The notes under the pieces were generated by a model, which was not told where the DNA came from, ran no database searches, and saw only the letters and a list, made by a program, of their open reading frames with translations. Below are positions 2,406-19,941 of a stretch of DNA of 23,520 nt, piece by piece. Each line of letters starts with the position of its first letter. Position 1 is the stretch's first letter. The position numbers were made by a program, and so were the translations under genes. This DNA comes from a virus: IMG/VR virus record IMGVR_UViG_3300023501_000055, positions 1 through 23,520 of that record. The stretch is one strand, 5' to 3'.

Positions 2406-2442
2406 ATATGTATAAGTTAAACAAGTAGAGGAGCACTATACA

Positions 2443-3256: not shown

Positions 3257-3288
3257 AGTATTATAAACAAACAAAAGGGCAAGCACAC

Positions 3289-3573
3289 ATGAAAAACTTA
3301 TTTGAAACTCCCCAAGCACAGAAGCAACTTGCAGCCGTAGGGCGCCAGATGCAAGACTACTCCGAAGACTTTGGTAAGATACATGGCCTCAAGCAATTGA
3401 AAGAAGGTGGTCTACGTATACTCAATGAGCTAAGCCATGTAGGCGGGATGCTTATCCGTTATGGTGTGACTTTTGGTACCCAGCTCAAAGACTTTACAGA
3501 TGGTGATTACCAATTGATTGCAGAGTTTATGAAGGGAAATTACTCAAACGATTACTTGAAGGAGTTGAAGTAA
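3289..3573 (+). CDS. hypothetical early protein
   Basis: 94 residues, mostly helical by appearance, with no recognised domain (MKNLFETPQAQKQLAAVGRQ at the start, FTDGDYQLIAEFM near the end). The start follows promoter 4 and an AAAAGGGCAAGCACAC leader. The stop TAA overlaps the ATG of the next gene in a TAATG junction, so the two form one coupled unit. Confidence 0.75.
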   Translation: MKNLFETPQAQKQLAAVGRQMQDYSEDFGKIHGLKQLKEGGLRILNELSHVGGMLIRYGVTFGTQLKDFTDGDYQLIAEFMKGNYSNDYLKELK

Positions 3574-3746
3574 TGGCGTTCTGTGTTAGCTGTCATACAT
3601 TGGAGAAGCAGTTCTTTGCTCCTCGATGCAGTGAGTGTAATGAAGAGACCAGGTTCCTGATGCAGTGTCTTGGTAGTCTAGTATATACCACAGCCTATGT
3701 TGGCGGCATTATACTGTTTGGTTATTTTATATTATCTGTTAATTAG
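3573..3746 (+). CDS. small zinc-ribbon membrane protein
   Basis: A 57-residue frame starts at the ATG of a TAATG overlap. Two CxxC knuckles (C4-VS-C7 and C19-SE-C22) form a probable zinc ribbon at the N-terminus. They are followed by a hydrophobic segment (about residues 35-55, with AYVGGIILFGYFILSV) that would anchor the protein in the inner membrane with the ribbon in the cytoplasm. Function is unknown. It ends three bases before the -35 of promoter 5, the standard arrangement here. Confidence 0.65.
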   Translation: MAFCVSCHTLEKQFFAPRCSECNEETRFLMQCLGSLVYTTAYVGGIILFGYFILSVN

Positions 3747-3777: not shown

Positions 3778-3810
3778 ATATGTATAAGTTAATAAAGCAG
3801 AGGGCAAATT

Positions 3811-4080: not shown

Positions 4081-4326
4081 ATGAGCTATGACCCAACTCC
4101 TTTAGTTTCACCAGAGTTTGATTGCAGTCTAGTAGAAGAAGGCCGCAGGGAGAGTGTGGATGCAACGGACCTAATCCTAAAGGACGGTTGCATGGACCAC
4201 CCGGGAGACATCATTGCTAACATCCTGCACTGGTGCGATCACTATAGCGAAGACTTTGAAGACATCCTGCGCCGTGGCAGGGACTATCATAAAGATGAAC
4301 TAGATGGGTTGAAAATTAGGGGTTGA
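4081..4326 (+). CDS. hypothetical acidic protein
   Basis: 81 residues, acidic, with HWCDHYSEDFEDILRRGRDY near the C-terminus; no family recognised. It starts directly after the stop of the preceding gene with no gap, so it depends on that gene's translation. Its own TGA (4324-4326) lies inside the TTGACA of promoter 6. Confidence 0.72.
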   Translation: MSYDPTPLVSPEFDCSLVEEGRRESVDATDLILKDGCMDHPGDIIANILHWCDHYSEDFEDILRRGRDYHKDELDGLKIRG

Positions 4327-4351: not shown

Positions 4352-4386
4352 AGTATTACAAATTAAGTAAACACAAAGGGCACGAC

Positions 4387-4709: not shown

Positions 4710-4738
4710 TTGACAAGTGCTAGTGTGTGTGCTATACT
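4710..4738 (+). promoter_or_regulatory. early promoter 7
   Basis: TTGACA (4710-4715), 17-bp spacer ending TGC, TATACT (4733-4738), dyad ACTGT-ATATA-ACAGT (4736-4750), identical to that of promoter 1. Ribosome-binding box AGGGCA at 4774-4779. Confidence 0.93.
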
Positions 4739-4783
4739 GTATATAACAGTTAGATAAACGTTAAACAAAGGACAGGGCAAAAC

Positions 4784-5785
4784 ATGCAGAACATTAAGAT
4801 AGTAAATGGTACTTACAGACTACGTGGCAAAGAAACAGATATGAGCGGTATGATATTTCCAATGGCCAAAGAGTTTACTCTAGGCACTAGTGGTGGAGCT
4901 GTTACAGTTGACAGTACTACTGTTATTGGATTACCAAATCGTAACATTAAGATCAAATGTAATAACCCAGAGGATTACGAGCTGGTTGGAGATGATGTCA
5001 AAACAGAAGTCGTTGAAGAGTCAGACGCTGAAATTGTAGAGCGCATCAGAGAACGATTTGACATGCTCAAAGACATGACCAAAGCCGTCAAAAAGGGAAG
5101 CGTCAGAGCAATGATTGTTTCCGGTCCTCCGGGTGTAGGCAAGAGCCACGGTGTTGAGGAAGTGTTGGATCGTTATGCAACTATGGAGATGATGGGAGCA
5201 GGCAAGACACACGAAGTCATCAAAGGTGCTATGTCGCCAATTGGTCTCTACTGCAAGTTGTACAAGATGGCAGACAAAGGTAAGGTAGTTGTGTTTGATG
5301 ACTGTGACAGCATCTTCCAGGATGACCTAAGCTTGAACATATTGAAGGCAGCACTAGACAGCAAGAAGAATCGTTGGATCCATTGGAACACTGATTCATT
5401 CAAGTTGCGCAACGAAGGTGTGCCAGACAAGTTTAAGTTTGAAGCTAGTGCAATCTTTATCACAAACATGAAGTTTGATAAAGTCAAAGGCAAGTTGCGT
5501 GAGCACTTGGAAGCATTAGAGTCACGCTGTCACTACATGGATCTAACTATCGATACCGACAAAGAGAAAGTATTACGTATAAAGCAAGTCATCTCAGATG
5601 GCATGTTGGATGATCGTAAGTTGTCAGAAGATGTTAAAGTTGACATCATGGACTTTGTTGAAATGAATATGAGTAAGCTACGCGAACTGTCACTTCGTAC
5701 AGTACTAAAGGTAGCAGACTTAGCTGAAGCTTTCCCAACTAAGTGGGAAGCGATGGCGGAAAATACCGTTATGCGTCGAGCATAA
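4784..5785 (+). CDS. AAA-family ATPase
   Basis: 333 residues. An N-terminal region of about 85 residues of unknown fold precedes a single ATPase domain with Walker A GPPGVGKS (114-121), Walker B VVVFDDCD (168-175), a sensor-1-like IFITN (224-228) and a possible arginine finger in LESRCH (about 247-250). It should hydrolyse ATP, probably as a ring oligomer, to remodel a DNA-protein or protein complex. Similar single AAA proteins are conserved in T4-like marine phages without an assigned role. It is monocistronic from promoter 7. A 7-pair hairpin (GTTATGC/GCATAAC, 5768-5786) spans the stop codon, and the structured RNA region at 5805-6036 follows. The transcript could therefore yield both mRNA and a 3'-derived regulatory RNA. 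Confidence 0.9.
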   Translation: MQNIKIVNGTYRLRGKETDMSGMIFPMAKEFTLGTSGGAVTVDSTTVIGLPNRNIKIKCNNPEDYELVGDDVKTEVVEESDAEIVERIRERFDMLKDMTKAVKKGSVRAMIVSGPPGVGKSHGVEEVLDRYATMEMMGAGKTHEVIKGAMSPIGLYCKLYKMADKGKVVVFDDCDSIFQDDLSLNILKAALDSKKNRWIHWNTDSFKLRNEGVPDKFKFEASAIFITNMKFDKVKGKLREHLEALESRCHYMDLTIDTDKEKVLRIKQVISDGMLDDRKLSEDVKVDIMDFVEMNMSKLRELSLRTVLKVADLAEAFPTKWEAMAENTVMRRA

Positions 5786-5804
5786 CGCTCCGCTTCATGT
5801 GTAA

Positions 5805-6000
5805 GGGCAGCAGCGCACCCTGTGGTGTTGCCCAACAAGGACAGACTAGATTGTGCCCTCGATCGAAGCTGTCCGAACAGAGCTAGTAAGGATGTGCCCT
5901 CGTCCAAGCTAGTTCATAAGAAGCCGAAGTAGCCATTAAGAACTGTGCGGTAGTTGGTAGTAAAAGCTTGTGCCCTCACGCTTTGCTACCTTTTTAGAAG
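5805..6000 (+). ncRNA. tandem-hairpin RNA with repeated TGTGCCCTC loops
   Basis: Four consecutive hairpins lie here: HP1 5805-5833 (GGGCAGCA/TGTTGCCC); HP2 5839-5874 (GGACAG/CTGTCC, then GAT/ATC); HP3 5880-5915 (eight outer pairs, AA/AA internal loop, GGA/TCC); HP4 5956-5990 (about 11 pairs). HP2 and HP3 share the identical 10-base loop TGTGCCCTCG, and HP4 shows TGTGCCCTC inside a 12-base loop. The terminator hairpin that follows has the loop TGCCCT. The shared core TGCCCT is the reverse complement of AGGGCA, the ribosome-binding box of eight early genes here. Stems differ in sequence while loops are kept, as expected for selection on the loops. Likely a 3'-UTR-derived or independent regulatory RNA; no separate promoter of the local type precedes it, so it may be cut from the ATPase transcript. 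Confidence 0.72.
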
Positions 6001-6036
6001 CCCTGCTCAGTATGCCCTTACTGAGTGGGGTTTTTT
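6001..6036 (+). terminator. intrinsic terminator with TGCCCT loop
   Basis: A 12-pair stem (6001-6012 with 6019-6030, two G-T wobbles) encloses the six-base loop TGCCCT and is followed by TTTTTT. It ends the ATPase/hairpin-RNA transcript, and its loop carries the same core as the preceding hairpins. Confidence 0.93.
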
Positions 6037-6089: not shown

Positions 6090-6124
6090 ATATACATATT
6101 AAACAATAAAGCAAAGGGCGAATA

Positions 6125-6356: not shown

Positions 6357-6388
6357 GTATATACAAACTAGCAAAAAGGGCAAACAAT

Positions 6389-6890: not shown

Positions 6891-6927
6891 GTTAGTATAA
6901 GTTAAATAAACCATAAGGGCAAACGAC

Positions 6928-7362
6928 ATGGCATATGTAAGCAAGCAGGACAAAGCAGAACTAGCTCCAGGAATCAAAGCTGTTCTTAAGAAGTATAACA
7001 TGAAGGGCAGCATTTCAGTTAGACATTACTCAACTCTAGTAGTTAAGATCACACAAGGCGCAATTGACTTCAGTGATTACTTCACACATGGTGAAGGTTA
7101 CATTCAAGTGAATGAGTACTGGATCGATCAACACTATTCACGCATTCATAAGGCGTTCTTAAACGAACTGTTGGCTGCTATGAAAGGTACCAACTACTAT
7201 AACAATGATGATTCGATGACTGACTACTTTGATCGTAGCCACTACACTAACATCTACATCGGTGCGTGGGATAAGCCATATGCATTCGTCAAAGGCAGCA
7301 TTAATGTTGATGCAAGCCTTAGAGCAGACCCAAACAAAGAAGCATACCTAGTAGCGCAATAA
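6928..7362 (+). CDS. LPD29-like domain protein
   Basis: 144 residues that match my memory of the LPD29 (large polyvalent protein associated) family: MAYVSKQDKAELAPGIKAVL at the start, ISVRHYSTLVVKI, VNEYWIDQHYS, DYFDRSHYTNIYIGAWDKPY. These domains occur in phage and plasmid proteins alone or inside large polyvalent proteins. They are thought to act early after entry against host functions; the molecular activity is not established. Ribosome-binding box AGGGCA at 6916-6921. Monocistronic; promoter 12 follows directly. Confidence 0.78.
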   Translation: MAYVSKQDKAELAPGIKAVLKKYNMKGSISVRHYSTLVVKITQGAIDFSDYFTHGEGYIQVNEYWIDQHYSRIHKAFLNELLAAMKGTNYYNNDDSMTDYFDRSHYTNIYIGAWDKPYAFVKGSINVDASLRADPNKEAYLVAQ

Positions 7363-7395: not shown

Positions 7396-7431
7396 GTATA
7401 CAGTTAAACAATAAAGCAAAGAGGGCAAACT

Positions 7432-7692
7432 ATGCAAGCATTAAACAAATACGTTGAAGAGAAGAATCGTTGGAACGCATTCTTCGGACAGACTAACCTA
7501 CTCACACTAGACACAGCATCAGGACGCAAGGCAATAGCTGAGCAACTTGACTGTGATCTATCACCTGAGAACCTACACTGTGATGGAGAGATAAGCCAAG
7601 CACAGGCAATGAAGAAGTATAGAGCACTCAGCAAGGCAGCTGAACAACTACTTAAACTAGACCCAACTCAAACTGTAGAGGAGTTATACTAA
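7432..7692 (+). CDS. hypothetical helical protein
   Basis: 86 residues, predicted helical, with no recognised domain (MQALNKYVEEKNRWNAFFGQ; ISQAQAMKKYRALSKAAEQL). First gene of the last rightward operon. Its stop overlaps the next start in a TAATG junction. Confidence 0.74.
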   Translation: MQALNKYVEEKNRWNAFFGQTNLLTLDTASGRKAIAEQLDCDLSPENLHCDGEISQAQAMKKYRALSKAAEQLLKLDPTQTVEELY

Positions 7693-7967
7693 TGACTATG
7701 ATGAACACTGTAATAGACCAAGTAGCACGTATGGATAGCGCAGAGCTTAACCGTGTAGTGGATGCAATCAAGATGCGCAGGACATACATTGCCAAGGAGA
7801 GCGCCCGTGGCTTGTTCATAGGCGACTATGTTAGCTTTGCTAGCAAGCGTGGCACAACTGTACAAGGCACAGTTACTAAGGTCAACACCAAGACTGTAGT
7901 AGTAGACACAGTAAGGGAAGGACGCTGGAAGGTCACTGCTAGTATGCTAACACTGTTGGCTGCATAG
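7692..7967 (+). CDS. small protein with SH3/KOW-like beta barrel
   Basis: 91 residues. The N-terminal half is a helix (VIDQVARMDSAELNRVVDAI). The C-terminal half (about 40-91) reads FIGDYVSFASKRGTTVQGTV then TKVNTKTVVVD and GRWKVTASML, the pattern of a small five-strand barrel as in KOW/SH3-like nucleic-acid or protein binding modules. Such two-part proteins are frequent in T4-like marine phages. Coupled to the preceding gene; a strong terminator follows. Confidence 0.75.
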   Translation: MTMMNTVIDQVARMDSAELNRVVDAIKMRRTYIAKESARGLFIGDYVSFASKRGTTVQGTVTKVNTKTVVVDTVREGRWKVTASMLTLLAA

Positions 7968-8866: not shown

Positions 8867-9484
8867 CTAGCGCTGGGCGCTTCGCGCTTGTTCTGAATCG
8901 CGAGCTGTGTAATTTACGTTAATTATAAATCGCTGAGATGAGTTAGTTGGACTATTTGAGCTATGGTATGTTAGGCCATCAAACCAGGCCATTTGATTTG
9001 CTCGTGGTGTAATAGTATAGTCCACTGTAGGTGTTTTTATATGTTGTTTATAATATTCCGTTTGATCTAATCCTCGTTGAGGGTCAAACCTTTCTTTGTA
9101 CATAATAGTGTCGCCGTCGCAGTCATTGAGATAGAACAGTGCAGTGCGGTGTGCAAAATCGGTATCGACATGCGGGTCTGCTATATGATTTTCAGGAGTC
9201 ATTCCTGTTACACTACATCGTATTCTAATAATGTCAATGTCAGTTTGGCCCGATCTACTCAGTGCATCTCCCACAGCCATTTCTAAGTACGGAGCAAGGT
9301 GTGTTTGGCTGAGATCTTTGTGATAGGCAATGTGCTGCCACTTGTGATTGCCCAGATGCACTGTTTCTCCATCTCCGTAGTAGTCTGTTATGCACACAAA
9401 CCAAGGCATGTCTCCTCCTGTAATCAGTTGTTGTACCCGTTGTAGTTGCCAAGGGCTCCATATGTTTTGAAATAAATTGTTCAT
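8867..9484 (-). CDS. 2OG-Fe(II) oxygenase
   Basis: 205 residues with the facial triad of the prolyl-4-hydroxylase-like family: H105 and D107 in DPHVDTDF, distal H174 in TYHSSNSP, and R185 in QRFIINVNY as the 2-oxoglutarate anchor. The fold should use Fe(II), O2 and 2-oxoglutarate to hydroxylate a substrate, giving succinate and CO2. Phages of marine bacteria carry many such enzymes; substrates (protein, nucleotide or nucleic acid) are mostly unknown. Last gene of the leftward operon, overlapping the preceding acetyltransferase-like gene by an ATGA junction; no start signal of its own is needed. Confidence 0.85.
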   Translation of the reverse strand: MNNLFQNIWSPWQLQRVQQLITGGDMPWFVCITDYYGDGETVHLGNHKWQHIAYHKDLSQTHLAPYLEMAVGDALSRSGQTDIDIIRIRCSVTGMTPENHIADPHVDTDFAHRTALFYLNDCDGDTIMYKERFDPQRGLDQTEYYKQHIKTPTVDYTITPRANQMAWFDGLTYHSSNSPTNSSQRFIINVNYTARDSEQARSAQR

Positions 9485-9975
9485 GTTGTTCCTTTCATTA
9501 AGTGTGTGTATTCAAAGGTTTGATCAGTGTCGTATACAGCTAGGTGCACAGCGCCGTTCTTGAGGTGGAAACGTTTGGCCATGTCTGTGAGAGGACTTAG
9601 TGTTACCCAACGAGTGACCTCTGGTCTAGTGTTGCGTATGTGTTGTGCTAGTGCGTTGACTATGCGAGTACCGCAGCCTCGTTCGTAACTCCACACAGTG
9701 TAGAATACCGCAGTGTCAGTACTTACTGCTAGTTCACCGCTGGCACTGCTGAACCAATCTAGTTCTAGTTCGTTTTTGGGAATTGCATTGGTGTATGCAA
9801 CACAGATAATAGCCAACGGATGATCACTTGGTTCATCAGCAACAGCATATTGATCTTCGTATAGTGCCCACACTTGTCTGCCCTGTGTGGTTCTAAACTC
9901 TGCTGTAATATGTGCACGTACTGGATCGTCTAGTACGTACTGCTGTGCTTGTGCTGATGTTAGTAGTTGGATCAT
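9481..9975 (-). CDS. GNAT-like acetyltransferase
   Basis: 164 residues. The stretch AVFYTVWSYERGCGTRIVNA (from about 89) fits GNAT motif A: a beta strand followed by the acetyl-CoA pyrophosphate loop R/Q-x-x-G-x-G (here RGCGTR, about 99-104). RFHLKNGAVHLAVY near the C-terminus fits the motif B helix and strand with the common F-x-x-x-N/GF pattern. It would transfer an acetyl group from acetyl-CoA to an amine; the acceptor is unknown. It starts two bases after the helicase gene's stop and is read in the same operon. Confidence 0.65.
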   Translation of the reverse strand: MIQLLTSAQAQQYVLDDPVRAHITAEFRTTQGRQVWALYEDQYAVADEPSDHPLAIICVAYTNAIPKNELELDWFSSASGELAVSTDTAVFYTVWSYERGCGTRIVNALAQHIRNTRPEVTRWVTLSPLTDMAKRFHLKNGAVHLAVYDTDQTFEYTHLMKGTT

Positions 9976-19152: not shown

Positions 19153-19941
19153 TTATACCACCGCGTTAATTGTAGCTATAACCGCGTTAATTGTAGCTAT
19201 ATCTGCTACGACACTTTCAAAGTCGTCTAGTCGTAACATGTTAGGACCGTCACTAGGTGCGTTGTCTGGATCAGGGTGTACTTCTAAGAAAAAGTTGGTA
19301 ACGCCAAGAGCACTAGCTGCGCGGCATAAGCCAGGAACATAATCCCTGTTGCCACTGCTAGAACCTCCAAGACCACCAGGCTTCTGTACGCTGTGTGTGG
19401 CATCAAAAACCACAGGCACCCTAAAATTATTAAGCATGTAATCAATGCCGGTGAAATCAACAACCAAGTTGTTATATCCAAAACTAGTTCCTCTCTCTGT
19501 GATCCAAAGCTCTTTGGCTTCGTCACATTTACTTAGTATACCTTTCATATCCCACGGAGCAAGGAACTGTCCTTTTTTAATATTAACAATTTTATCTGTT
19601 GCACATGCCGCTTGTACTAGGTCAGTTTGTCGACAAAGGAATGCAGGAATTTGTAATACGTCAACAACATCATAATGCACCATTAGGGCAATTTGTTTTA
19701 TGTCATGTACGTCAGTAAGTATTTTAACACCGTGTACTTCTTTTAATATTTTAAAGTCGTACATAGTTTTAGAAAGTCCCATGCCGCGTTTGCCTTGCAT
19801 ACTACTGCGATTAGCTTTGTCATAACTTGCTTTGAAGTAGTATTCAATGCCGTACTTGGCACACACTTCTTTGCATCGTTGTGCAATTTGTGCAGACTGT
19901 CCTAAGGACTCGTGTTGGCAAGGTCCTGCTATTATTCTCAT
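19153..19941 (-). CDS. kdsA: 3-deoxy-8-phosphooctulonate synthase (KdsA)
   Basis: 262 residues covering the whole KdsA barrel: IIAGPCQHES (3-12), FKASYDKANRSS, ILTDVHD, DVLQIPAFLCRQTDL, VNIKKGQFLAPWDM, ERGTSFGYNNLVVD, PVVFDATHSVQKPGG, and EVHPDPDNAPSDGPN near the end. It condenses phosphoenolpyruvate with D-arabinose-5-phosphate to Kdo-8-phosphate, the precursor of the inner LPS core sugar Kdo. The Cys in AGPC is the metal ligand of the metal-dependent class (as in Aquifex), not the Asn class of E. coli. The C-terminus carries a 7-residue tandem duplication (IATINAV). A phage copy may keep or change Kdo supply during infection. Confidence 0.95.
   Translation of the reverse strand: MRIIAGPCQHESLGQSAQIAQRCKEVCAKYGIEYYFKASYDKANRSSMQGKRGMGLSKTMYDFKILKEVHGVKILTDVHDIKQIALMVHYDVVDVLQIPAFLCRQTDLVQAACATDKIVNIKKGQFLAPWDMKGILSKCDEAKELWITERGTSFGYNNLVVDFTGIDYMLNNFRVPVVFDATHSVQKPGGLGGSSSGNRDYVPGLCRAASALGVTNFFLEVHPDPDNAPSDGPNMLRLDDFESVVADIATINAVIATINAVV
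19160..19201. repeat. 21-bp perfect tandem duplication
   Basis: Two identical, adjacent 21-base units (19160-19180 and 19181-19201, beginning ACCGCGTTAATTG) at the 3' end of kdsA. They add seven in-frame residues just before the stop, so the reading frame is kept. Slippage could change the copy number. Confidence 0.95.

Follow-up and report, generated by a model that had tools for sequence, protein, structure and literature searches.

The stretch of DNA analysed here (the window) is the whole of IMG/VR virus record IMGVR_UViG_3300023501_000055, 23,520 bases from an uncultivated phage. Its plus strand carries a block of small genes, reaching up to position 7,967, with eleven promoters that have 11 or 12 of the 12 consensus bases. 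These genes are called early on the basis of their promoters and sizes. A tRNA-Arg (TCT) gene is located at 2291-2367 within this early block. The minus strand encodes a DnaB-like helicase, a primase-like protein and metabolic genes; a malonyl-CoA-decarboxylase-like gene (9481-9975, minus strand) and a DAHP-synthase gene (19153-19941, minus strand) are possible auxiliary metabolic genes.

The plus-strand gene at 4784-5785 encodes an AAA+ ATPase of PHROG 1250, similar to T4 NrdC.10 (phrog_1250 match, 1.6e-82). Homologues were found in 1,235 phage records (E 1e-5) and include proteins named nrdC.10 in Edwardsiella phages PEi20 and PEi26. The predicted structure of the protein is an ordinary AAA+ fold of modest confidence (pLDDT 73.9), and no clues to its function were found in this structure. 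A consensus-like sigma-70-type promoter (TTGACA-17-TATACT; 4710-4738, plus strand) drives the ATPase gene, and hence would also drive the RNA of an array of hairpins that lies in the 3' UTR of the gene, between its open reading frame and an intrinsic terminator at 5996-6035. The sole plus-strand promoter-like match listed between 4784 and 5800 has 9 of 12 consensus bases and is at 5621, inside the ATPase gene.

Five hairpins are predicted in this array, the number given in an initial annotation of the sequence: hairpin 1 at 5805-5833, hairpin 2 at 5839-5874, hairpin 3 at 5880-5915, hairpin 4 at 5956-5990 and hairpin 5, the terminator itself, at 5996-6035 (all plus strand). Hairpins 2, 3 and 4 carry TGTGCCCTC at 5852-5860, 5893-5901 and 5969-5977, and hairpin 5 has TGCCCT in its loop at 6013-6018, again as annotated. 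The accompanying statement that the loops do not differ is correct for hairpins 2-5, whose predicted six-base loop is exactly TGCCCT, but not for hairpin 1, the loop of which lacks the GCCCTC motif and has CCC only. A copy of AGGGCA at 5804-5809, in the 5' arm of the first hairpin, had been put forward as a self-target; because it falls almost fully within the stem, this proposal is unsupported. Folding of the array region gave an energy of -103.4 kcal/mol (z = -5.85), and none of 200 shuffled sequences was equally stable. The three copies of TGTGCCCTC in the window are all in the array (0.11 expected; three or more were reached in 0 of 100 shuffles).

When the window and seven relatives were compared with Rfam 15, only tRNA was detected at the gathering threshold; the best sub-threshold match of the array was NsiR1, with 20.8 of the 39 bits required. 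In a DNA similarity search of isolate phages, the matches shown for the 76 records listed are to the tRNA region and none is to the array, and a second search of isolate-phage DNA gave two short matches with an E value of 0.9. No comparable array was present in the stretches examined from PA5oct and Cronobacter phage S13.

The initial annotation reported an AGGGCA box before each of eight early genes, and all eight coordinates were confirmed. The boxes are at 780-785, 3276-3281, 3801-3806, 4377-4382, 4774-4779, 6377-6382, 6916-6921 and 7422-7427 (plus strand), which is 4-7 nt 5' of the ATG codons at 792, 3289, 3811, 4387, 4784, 6389, 6928 and 7432, respectively; the box at 4774-4779 is that of the ATPase gene itself. 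The seven-base matches that had been noted at three of these genes are also present (GAGGGCA at 3800-3806 and 7421-7427, and AGGGCAC at 4377-4383). A near-box, AGGGCG, precedes gene 6125 (6115-6120, plus strand), and a further AGGGCA at 7004-7009 is intragenic. AGGGCA occurs 18 times on both strands of the window compared to an expected 7.5, a number reached in 0 of 100 shuffles. Within the plus-strand block, the box is found on promoter-proximal genes. The operon-internal genes at 3573-3746, 4081-4326 and 7692-7967 have ordinary GGAG leaders without it, so only promoter-proximal genes would be targets. AGGGC is absent from the 22 minus-strand leaders of the window.

Interaction prediction, one of the checks proposed with the initial annotation, separates these groups with some overlap: the mean energy of the predicted duplex with the loops is -12.4 kcal/mol for the eight boxed leaders, -7.0 kcal/mol for the ten other plus-strand leaders and -5.9 kcal/mol for the 22 minus-strand leaders, and three unboxed leaders pair comparably to the boxed ones (gene 2443 at -14.0 kcal/mol and two minus-strand genes at -11.3 and -11.1 kcal/mol). 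In the leader of gene 2443, a candidate target, the pairing involves GAGGAGCAC (2428-2436, plus strand) and by our reading has one bulged A.

Relatives of the locus were collected in two ways: a search with the ATPase contributed 17 loci, and a profile search contributed the 80 best of its 586, for a total of 97. Six were dropped as duplicates. L004 and L005 belong to the window's own population (L005 is identical at 9584 of 9600 bases, and L004 has the same ATPase and 3' region), while L008, L015, L278 and L219 have 1.00, 0.997, 1.00 and 0.82 of their 31-mers in common with a kept neighbour. The remaining 91 and the window make 92 typed loci, which still include near-copies with identical ATPase rows (L217/L218, L259/L261 and L267/L268). 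Leaders were gathered by promoter and not by box. Twenty loci, including the window, were assigned to type A and 34 to type B, and 38 are without an array. Two loci were typed into A by hand: L010, in which the array is behind an insertion, and L212, which has one GCCCTC and one TGCCCTT. Lone TTCGCTCC 8-mers in L233, L257 and L266 were not scored as arrays.

In the 20 type A loci, the array is positioned behind the ATPase stop codon. The stems are largely unrelated among loci, and loop words such as TGTGCCCTCG, TATGCCCTCACG and GACCGCCCTCATC are kept. The 66 copies of GCCCT in these regions have a mean predicted unpaired probability of 0.83, with 77% above 0.7, compared to region means of 0.35-0.55; four copies have a value of 0.0, as they are in stems, and three more are below 0.4. 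In L010, a 201-codon minus-strand ORF (2189-2794), by eye a likely GIY-YIG homing endonuclease, stands between the ATPase gene and the array, which is kept. A motif-first search with the A word pair recovered 12 stretches, all with the ATPase gene upstream (35-139 nt). AGGGC leaders predominate in 11 of these, and the other is a 1.65-kb piece with neither leader type.

Type B loci have hairpins with TTCGCTCC loops (hairpin word GATTCGCTCCC or a close variant), and their promoter-led leaders are mostly AGGAGCG(A). The 11 loci of subtype B1 carry the hairpins directly 3' of the ATPase gene (two copies in nine loci and one in two), while the 23 loci of subtype B2 have a single hairpin 594-929 nt downstream of it. 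So that the selection would not depend on the ATPase gene, a motif-first search was made with only the B hairpin word as its query. This identified 57 stretches, several from the same records as the ATPase-selected loci. In 56 of them, the gene for an ATPase homologue is on the same strand and has its end 27-76 nt upstream; the 57th, L370, begins 96 nt before the word. As the ATPase gene is on the strand of the loop word in these 56 type B stretches and in the 12 type A stretches, its transcript would carry the antisense word. By loose leader counts, GGAGCG outnumbers AGGGC in 42 of the 57, with nine ties and six cases of the reverse; in these 15, the sequence available 5' of the array is no longer than 1,619 nt. 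A second hairpin is present in 52 cases, and in 40 of these a run of five T follows within 30 nt. A search of bacterial genomes with the B word gave a single match (L426), which was taken as chance because of its unrelated context.

The covariance check suggested by the initial annotation was made in relatives, and it bears out the expectation of kept loops on stems that change with compensation. In a gap-free alignment of 45 distinct B1 first hairpins, all 360 cells of the eight stem pairs hold standard pairs. Each of the six outer pairs has changes on both sides (94 cells), and the two inner pairs are invariant. The stem covariation score is 0.741 compared to 0.199 for shuffled alignments (0 of 500 as high), and slid versions of the stem are 19-39% paired. 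The loop was the search word, so its invariance in this set is by selection; loop conservation is instead taken from the ATPase-selected loci. B hairpins (e.g. L245:3250-3340) also keep letters outside of the loop, namely the internal-loop letters CCAA and YAA in the first hairpin and RTAAR in the second. These letters hint that, in addition to pairing, a protein or a tertiary fold is involved, though the first set is partly fixed by the search word.

Loops and leaders differ together between the two types. In type A (20 loci), 141 of the 188 promoter-led leaders contain AGGGC and not one contains GGAGCG; in type B (34 loci), GGAGCG is present in 143 of 241 (B1 53/73, B2 90/168) and AGGGC in none. 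The 38 loci without an array have AGGGC in 5 and GGAGCG in 18 of 181 promoter-led leaders. By locus count, L225, L246, L253, L264 and L276 contribute 17 GGAGCG leaders, and L257 and L284 a single one each. In the first five loci, the contig stops 80-777 nt past the ATPase gene and does not extend beyond the position of the B2 hairpin, so that absence of the array is not judgeable there. An unbiased k-mer table of loops and leaders agrees for the leaders, and its loop counts are noisy.

Similar patterns are observed in 14 longer records. GGAGCG-N2-12-ATG occurs 15, 19, 9 and 14 times in the four type B records, 1-4 times in each of the seven type A records and 3-4 times in the other three. AGGGC-N3-12-ATG occurs 29, 26, 13, 22, 27, 33 and 20 times in the type A records (reversed controls 2, 5, 5, 2, 8, 3 and 1), 11, 24, 15 and 10 times in the type B records (controls 7, 12, 10 and 4) and 29, 12 and 17 times in the other three (controls 16, 1 and 18); this pattern is short and also frequent in type B and other records, and therefore discriminates less well. 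In G002, which is from the window's own population, 17 of the 21 forward matches to it are near the array, within the final 13 kb. Each of the four type B records has two copies of GATTCGCTCCC, which is absent from the ten others, while TGTGCCCTCG is found in type A records only (four of the seven, the remaining three having variant flanks).

Predicted pairing follows the same division. The mean duplex energy of A leaders is -12.4 with the A loop, -5.7 with the B loop and -6.6 with a generic anti-Shine-Dalgarno (anti-SD) sequence, and the A loop is the better of the two for 176 of 188 leaders. For B leaders, the means are -10.7 with the B loop, -6.5 with the A loop and -7.2 with the anti-SD sequence, and the B loop is better for 197 of 255. 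The loop match reaches past the SD core, to a conserved GCA in A and CGA in B. The distance from box to ATG is 5.7 nt (sd 2.1, n = 151) in A and 4.3 nt (sd 1.3, n = 159) in B, while the distance from the -10 element to the box has an sd of 8.7 in A and 5.1 in B: box spacing is tied to the start codon and not to the promoter. The leaders share further letters besides the box. As read from these sequences, loop and leader changed together between A and B with their complementarity kept.

On a quick IQ-TREE phylogeny of the ATPase (92 rows), type A is accounted for by one change (branch support 56), B1 by one (96), B2 by five and the array-less state by seven. The initial annotation had considered that relatives keeping the early boxes without the loops would speak against its reading. 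This is addressed by an array-less clade next to or inside A (L233-L237, L241, L242, L244 and L258), in which AGGGC remains in 5 of 32 promoter-led leaders, all five being the leader of the ATPase gene. The regulon-wide box is thus gone along with the loops, while the ATPase gene's own box stays. In L233-L237 and L244, AGGGC is kept before the ATPase gene alone and the array is absent. Among 82 loci scored (five others were left out because of truncation and another five because they had fewer than two leaders), array presence was compared with a box frequency of 30% or more among the promoter-led leaders. The two agree in 80 loci (52 with both, 28 with neither) and disagree in L235 and L239. 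The latter, a B2 locus, has the B hairpin and GGAGCG in only one of its seven leaders. A test of independent pairs found three pairs, in which the box follows the array in 2.8 on average and is never discordant (p 0.25). The direction of the independent co-changes is clear, and their number is small.

Several observations do not fit this pattern. In group C, 11 of 17 loci examined (L252, L255, L257, L273, L374, L376, L377, L379, L381, L384 and L395) have a different structured RNA, built around GGGGTAGTGTCC and carrying GCTCC words, upstream of the ATPase gene, possibly related or analogous to the array. Five of the 17 are in the ATPase tree, as the sister of B2. The word TTGCTCC accompanies GGAGCA leaders in L252 (8 of 9 GGAG leaders), in L384 (6 of 7) and less clearly in L395 (2 of 7), but L379 has GGAGCA in 10 of 12 with the word CCGCTCC and L376 in 5 of 6 with TCGCTCC. 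Judged from these words, group C appears to couple loops and leaders only loosely. L247 (record G001, 259 kb) has ten plus-strand leaders with ACGGAG, most of them CACTAACANAACGGAGAAACA, with AACGGAG in common. At nine-base exactness, the complement of this leader has 12 matches in the 259 kb, none of which resembles a hairpin array; an RNA of this kind is therefore not a prerequisite for uniform leaders. When the array-less loci were searched for tandem equal loops, only A/T-rich or scattered pairs emerged, with a detector that also misses the real arrays of L256 and L269. Matches to a loose pattern and to a 16-mer (69 stretches) were judged to be largely chance and were not counted.

The hairpins very likely belong to a family of structured RNAs associated with the ATPase gene. 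Taking together the hairpins, the loop word, the boxes, the stem covariation and the matched difference between lineages, all of which come from sequence, we infer that a stable RNA is produced, that it pairs with leaders in the cell and that it thereby represses early genes and sets their timing. As a whole, we consider it likely that a small RNA from the 3' UTR pairs with the leader boxes and represses the early regulon of the phage itself. In its parts, pairing with the early leaders is probably the function of the RNA, and it is fairly likely that the RNA both represses and times that regulon. The 3' UTR of the ATPase mRNA (about 5786-6036) would itself be, or would give rise by processing to, a small RNA composed of hairpins. 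Four of the hairpins would present one common C-rich word, single-stranded, in their loops, and each of these loops would pair with the box that overlaps the SD site in the leaders of promoter-proximal early genes, that of the ATPase gene included, and by covering the ribosome-binding site would lower translation of the early set. Because it has the same class of strong promoter, the small RNA would build up alongside its targets and so end the early burst. The initial annotation had proposed a multi-target antisense RNA acting on early leaders, including that of its parent gene at 4784; the strongest new support for that proposal comes from the second lineage, in which loop and leader are different yet complementary.

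Three other explanations were weighed against this one. CsrB RNAs are a binding platform for the protein CsrA, and the hairpins could similarly be a platform for a phage or host RNA-binding protein, with the leader box being a separate ribosome-binding sequence. Several loops with one conserved word on free stems are indeed the anatomy of a protein sponge, and the letters kept outside of the loop in B hairpins (CCAA and YAA, in part fixed by the search word, and RTAAR) agree with a bound protein; however, a sponge would copy the mRNA site, and the array instead has its complement, which differs with the leader. We regard such a platform as unlikely. Marginally less so is an RNA that pairs with the leaders but helps the mRNAs (by stabilizing, storing or delaying them, or by shielding them from nucleases), or that acts mainly in cis on the ATPase mRNA. 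The array has the same promoter class as its targets, the ATPase leader is boxed in 16 of 20 type A and 20 of 23 B2 loci, and this box is the sole one kept in the array-less clade, all of which would suit a helper or a cis element. In opposition to this, pairing should block initiation at the position of the box, the end of which is on average 4-6 nt 5' of the start codon, and action in cis alone is insufficient since many other genes carry the box.

It is very improbable that the box is an operator in the DNA, or a component of a promoter-leader cassette that was duplicated, with loops that owe their match to descent from such an element. The location of the boxes on promoter-proximal genes, the further letters shared among leaders and the common leader of L247 without loops are compatible with such an origin, but spacing follows the ATG and not the promoter, and the loops are an antisense copy on the strand transcribed with the ATPase gene (56 of 56 and 12 of 12 stretches), set within covarying stems.

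Lytic phages shut down their early genes using transcription factors and repressor proteins such as RegA. If the small-RNA interpretation is true, a multi-loop RNA that addresses at least eight early leaders through a common, co-varying word would be a different route to early shut-down. The balance also tilts modestly towards a private translation code, in which an ATPase-linked small RNA bears the antisense word for a lineage-specific box of the early regulon, and RNA and regulon were rewritten together as lineages diverged. This would be a case where a small RNA and a whole regulon appear to have changed together. The words of the two lineages differ by nature, which makes specificity accessible to a test by exchange of their natural arrays and leaders.

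Among phage systems, the T4 protein RegA is described as a repressor that acts at the initiation region of about 30 mRNAs of a single phage (PMC3014915). It resembles the proposed RNA in the translational shut-down of an early regulon and differs in being a protein that recognizes A+U-rich sites. RegA (PF01818) was not detected in the 14 records of this group that were searched, which are possibly fragments (controls: Cronobacter phage S13, 3.9e-58; PA5oct, no match). The C4 antisense RNA of phages P1 and P7 pairs around a ribosome-binding site and blocks translation, with its complementary parts probably in loops according to the account in PMC12197685. C4 acts on one target mRNA (ant) in lysogenic immunity, in contrast to the many early genes, tandem identical loops and 3'-UTR position of the array, and the Rfam C4 family had no match in the window or the seven relatives. 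Nothing comparable to a multi-target anti-SD RNA from a phage was found in the titles and abstract openings listed from published open-access papers. Among bacteria, Listeria LhrC-type sRNAs bind SD regions by C-rich sequences. The same is described for staphylococcal RsaA (PMC3961350). Both differ from the array in being bacterial and chromosomal, with other targets.

By computation, the array has an accessible loop complementary to several mRNA start regions, as in trans-acting anti-SD RNAs, a likeness of functional kind and not of homology. To this kind belong the alpha-r14/cuckoo sRNAs of alphaproteobacteria, which we take to include CcsR of Rhodobacter. Members such as NfeR1 of Sinorhizobium meliloti and SmelA075/SmelA099 are described as having two to four hairpins with the same anti-SD motif in each loop on diverged stems, and their loops as silencing mRNAs redundantly at start regions (PMC3927594; PMC10746234). 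The phage array is similar in its tandem hairpins, conserved loops and diverged stems, although B2 loci have a single hairpin. The alpha-r14/cuckoo RNAs are bacterial and direct the loop CCUCCUCCC against the general SD sequence of host genes, whereas the phage loops are TGTGCCCTC (A) or ATTCGCTCC (B) and fit a box particular to the lineage, including letters beyond the SD core, and differ along with that box. The array appears to be a multi-loop anti-SD small RNA of a phage: it would work like an alpha-r14/cuckoo RNA, yet it is set apart from that group by the Rfam comparison and by its loop word.
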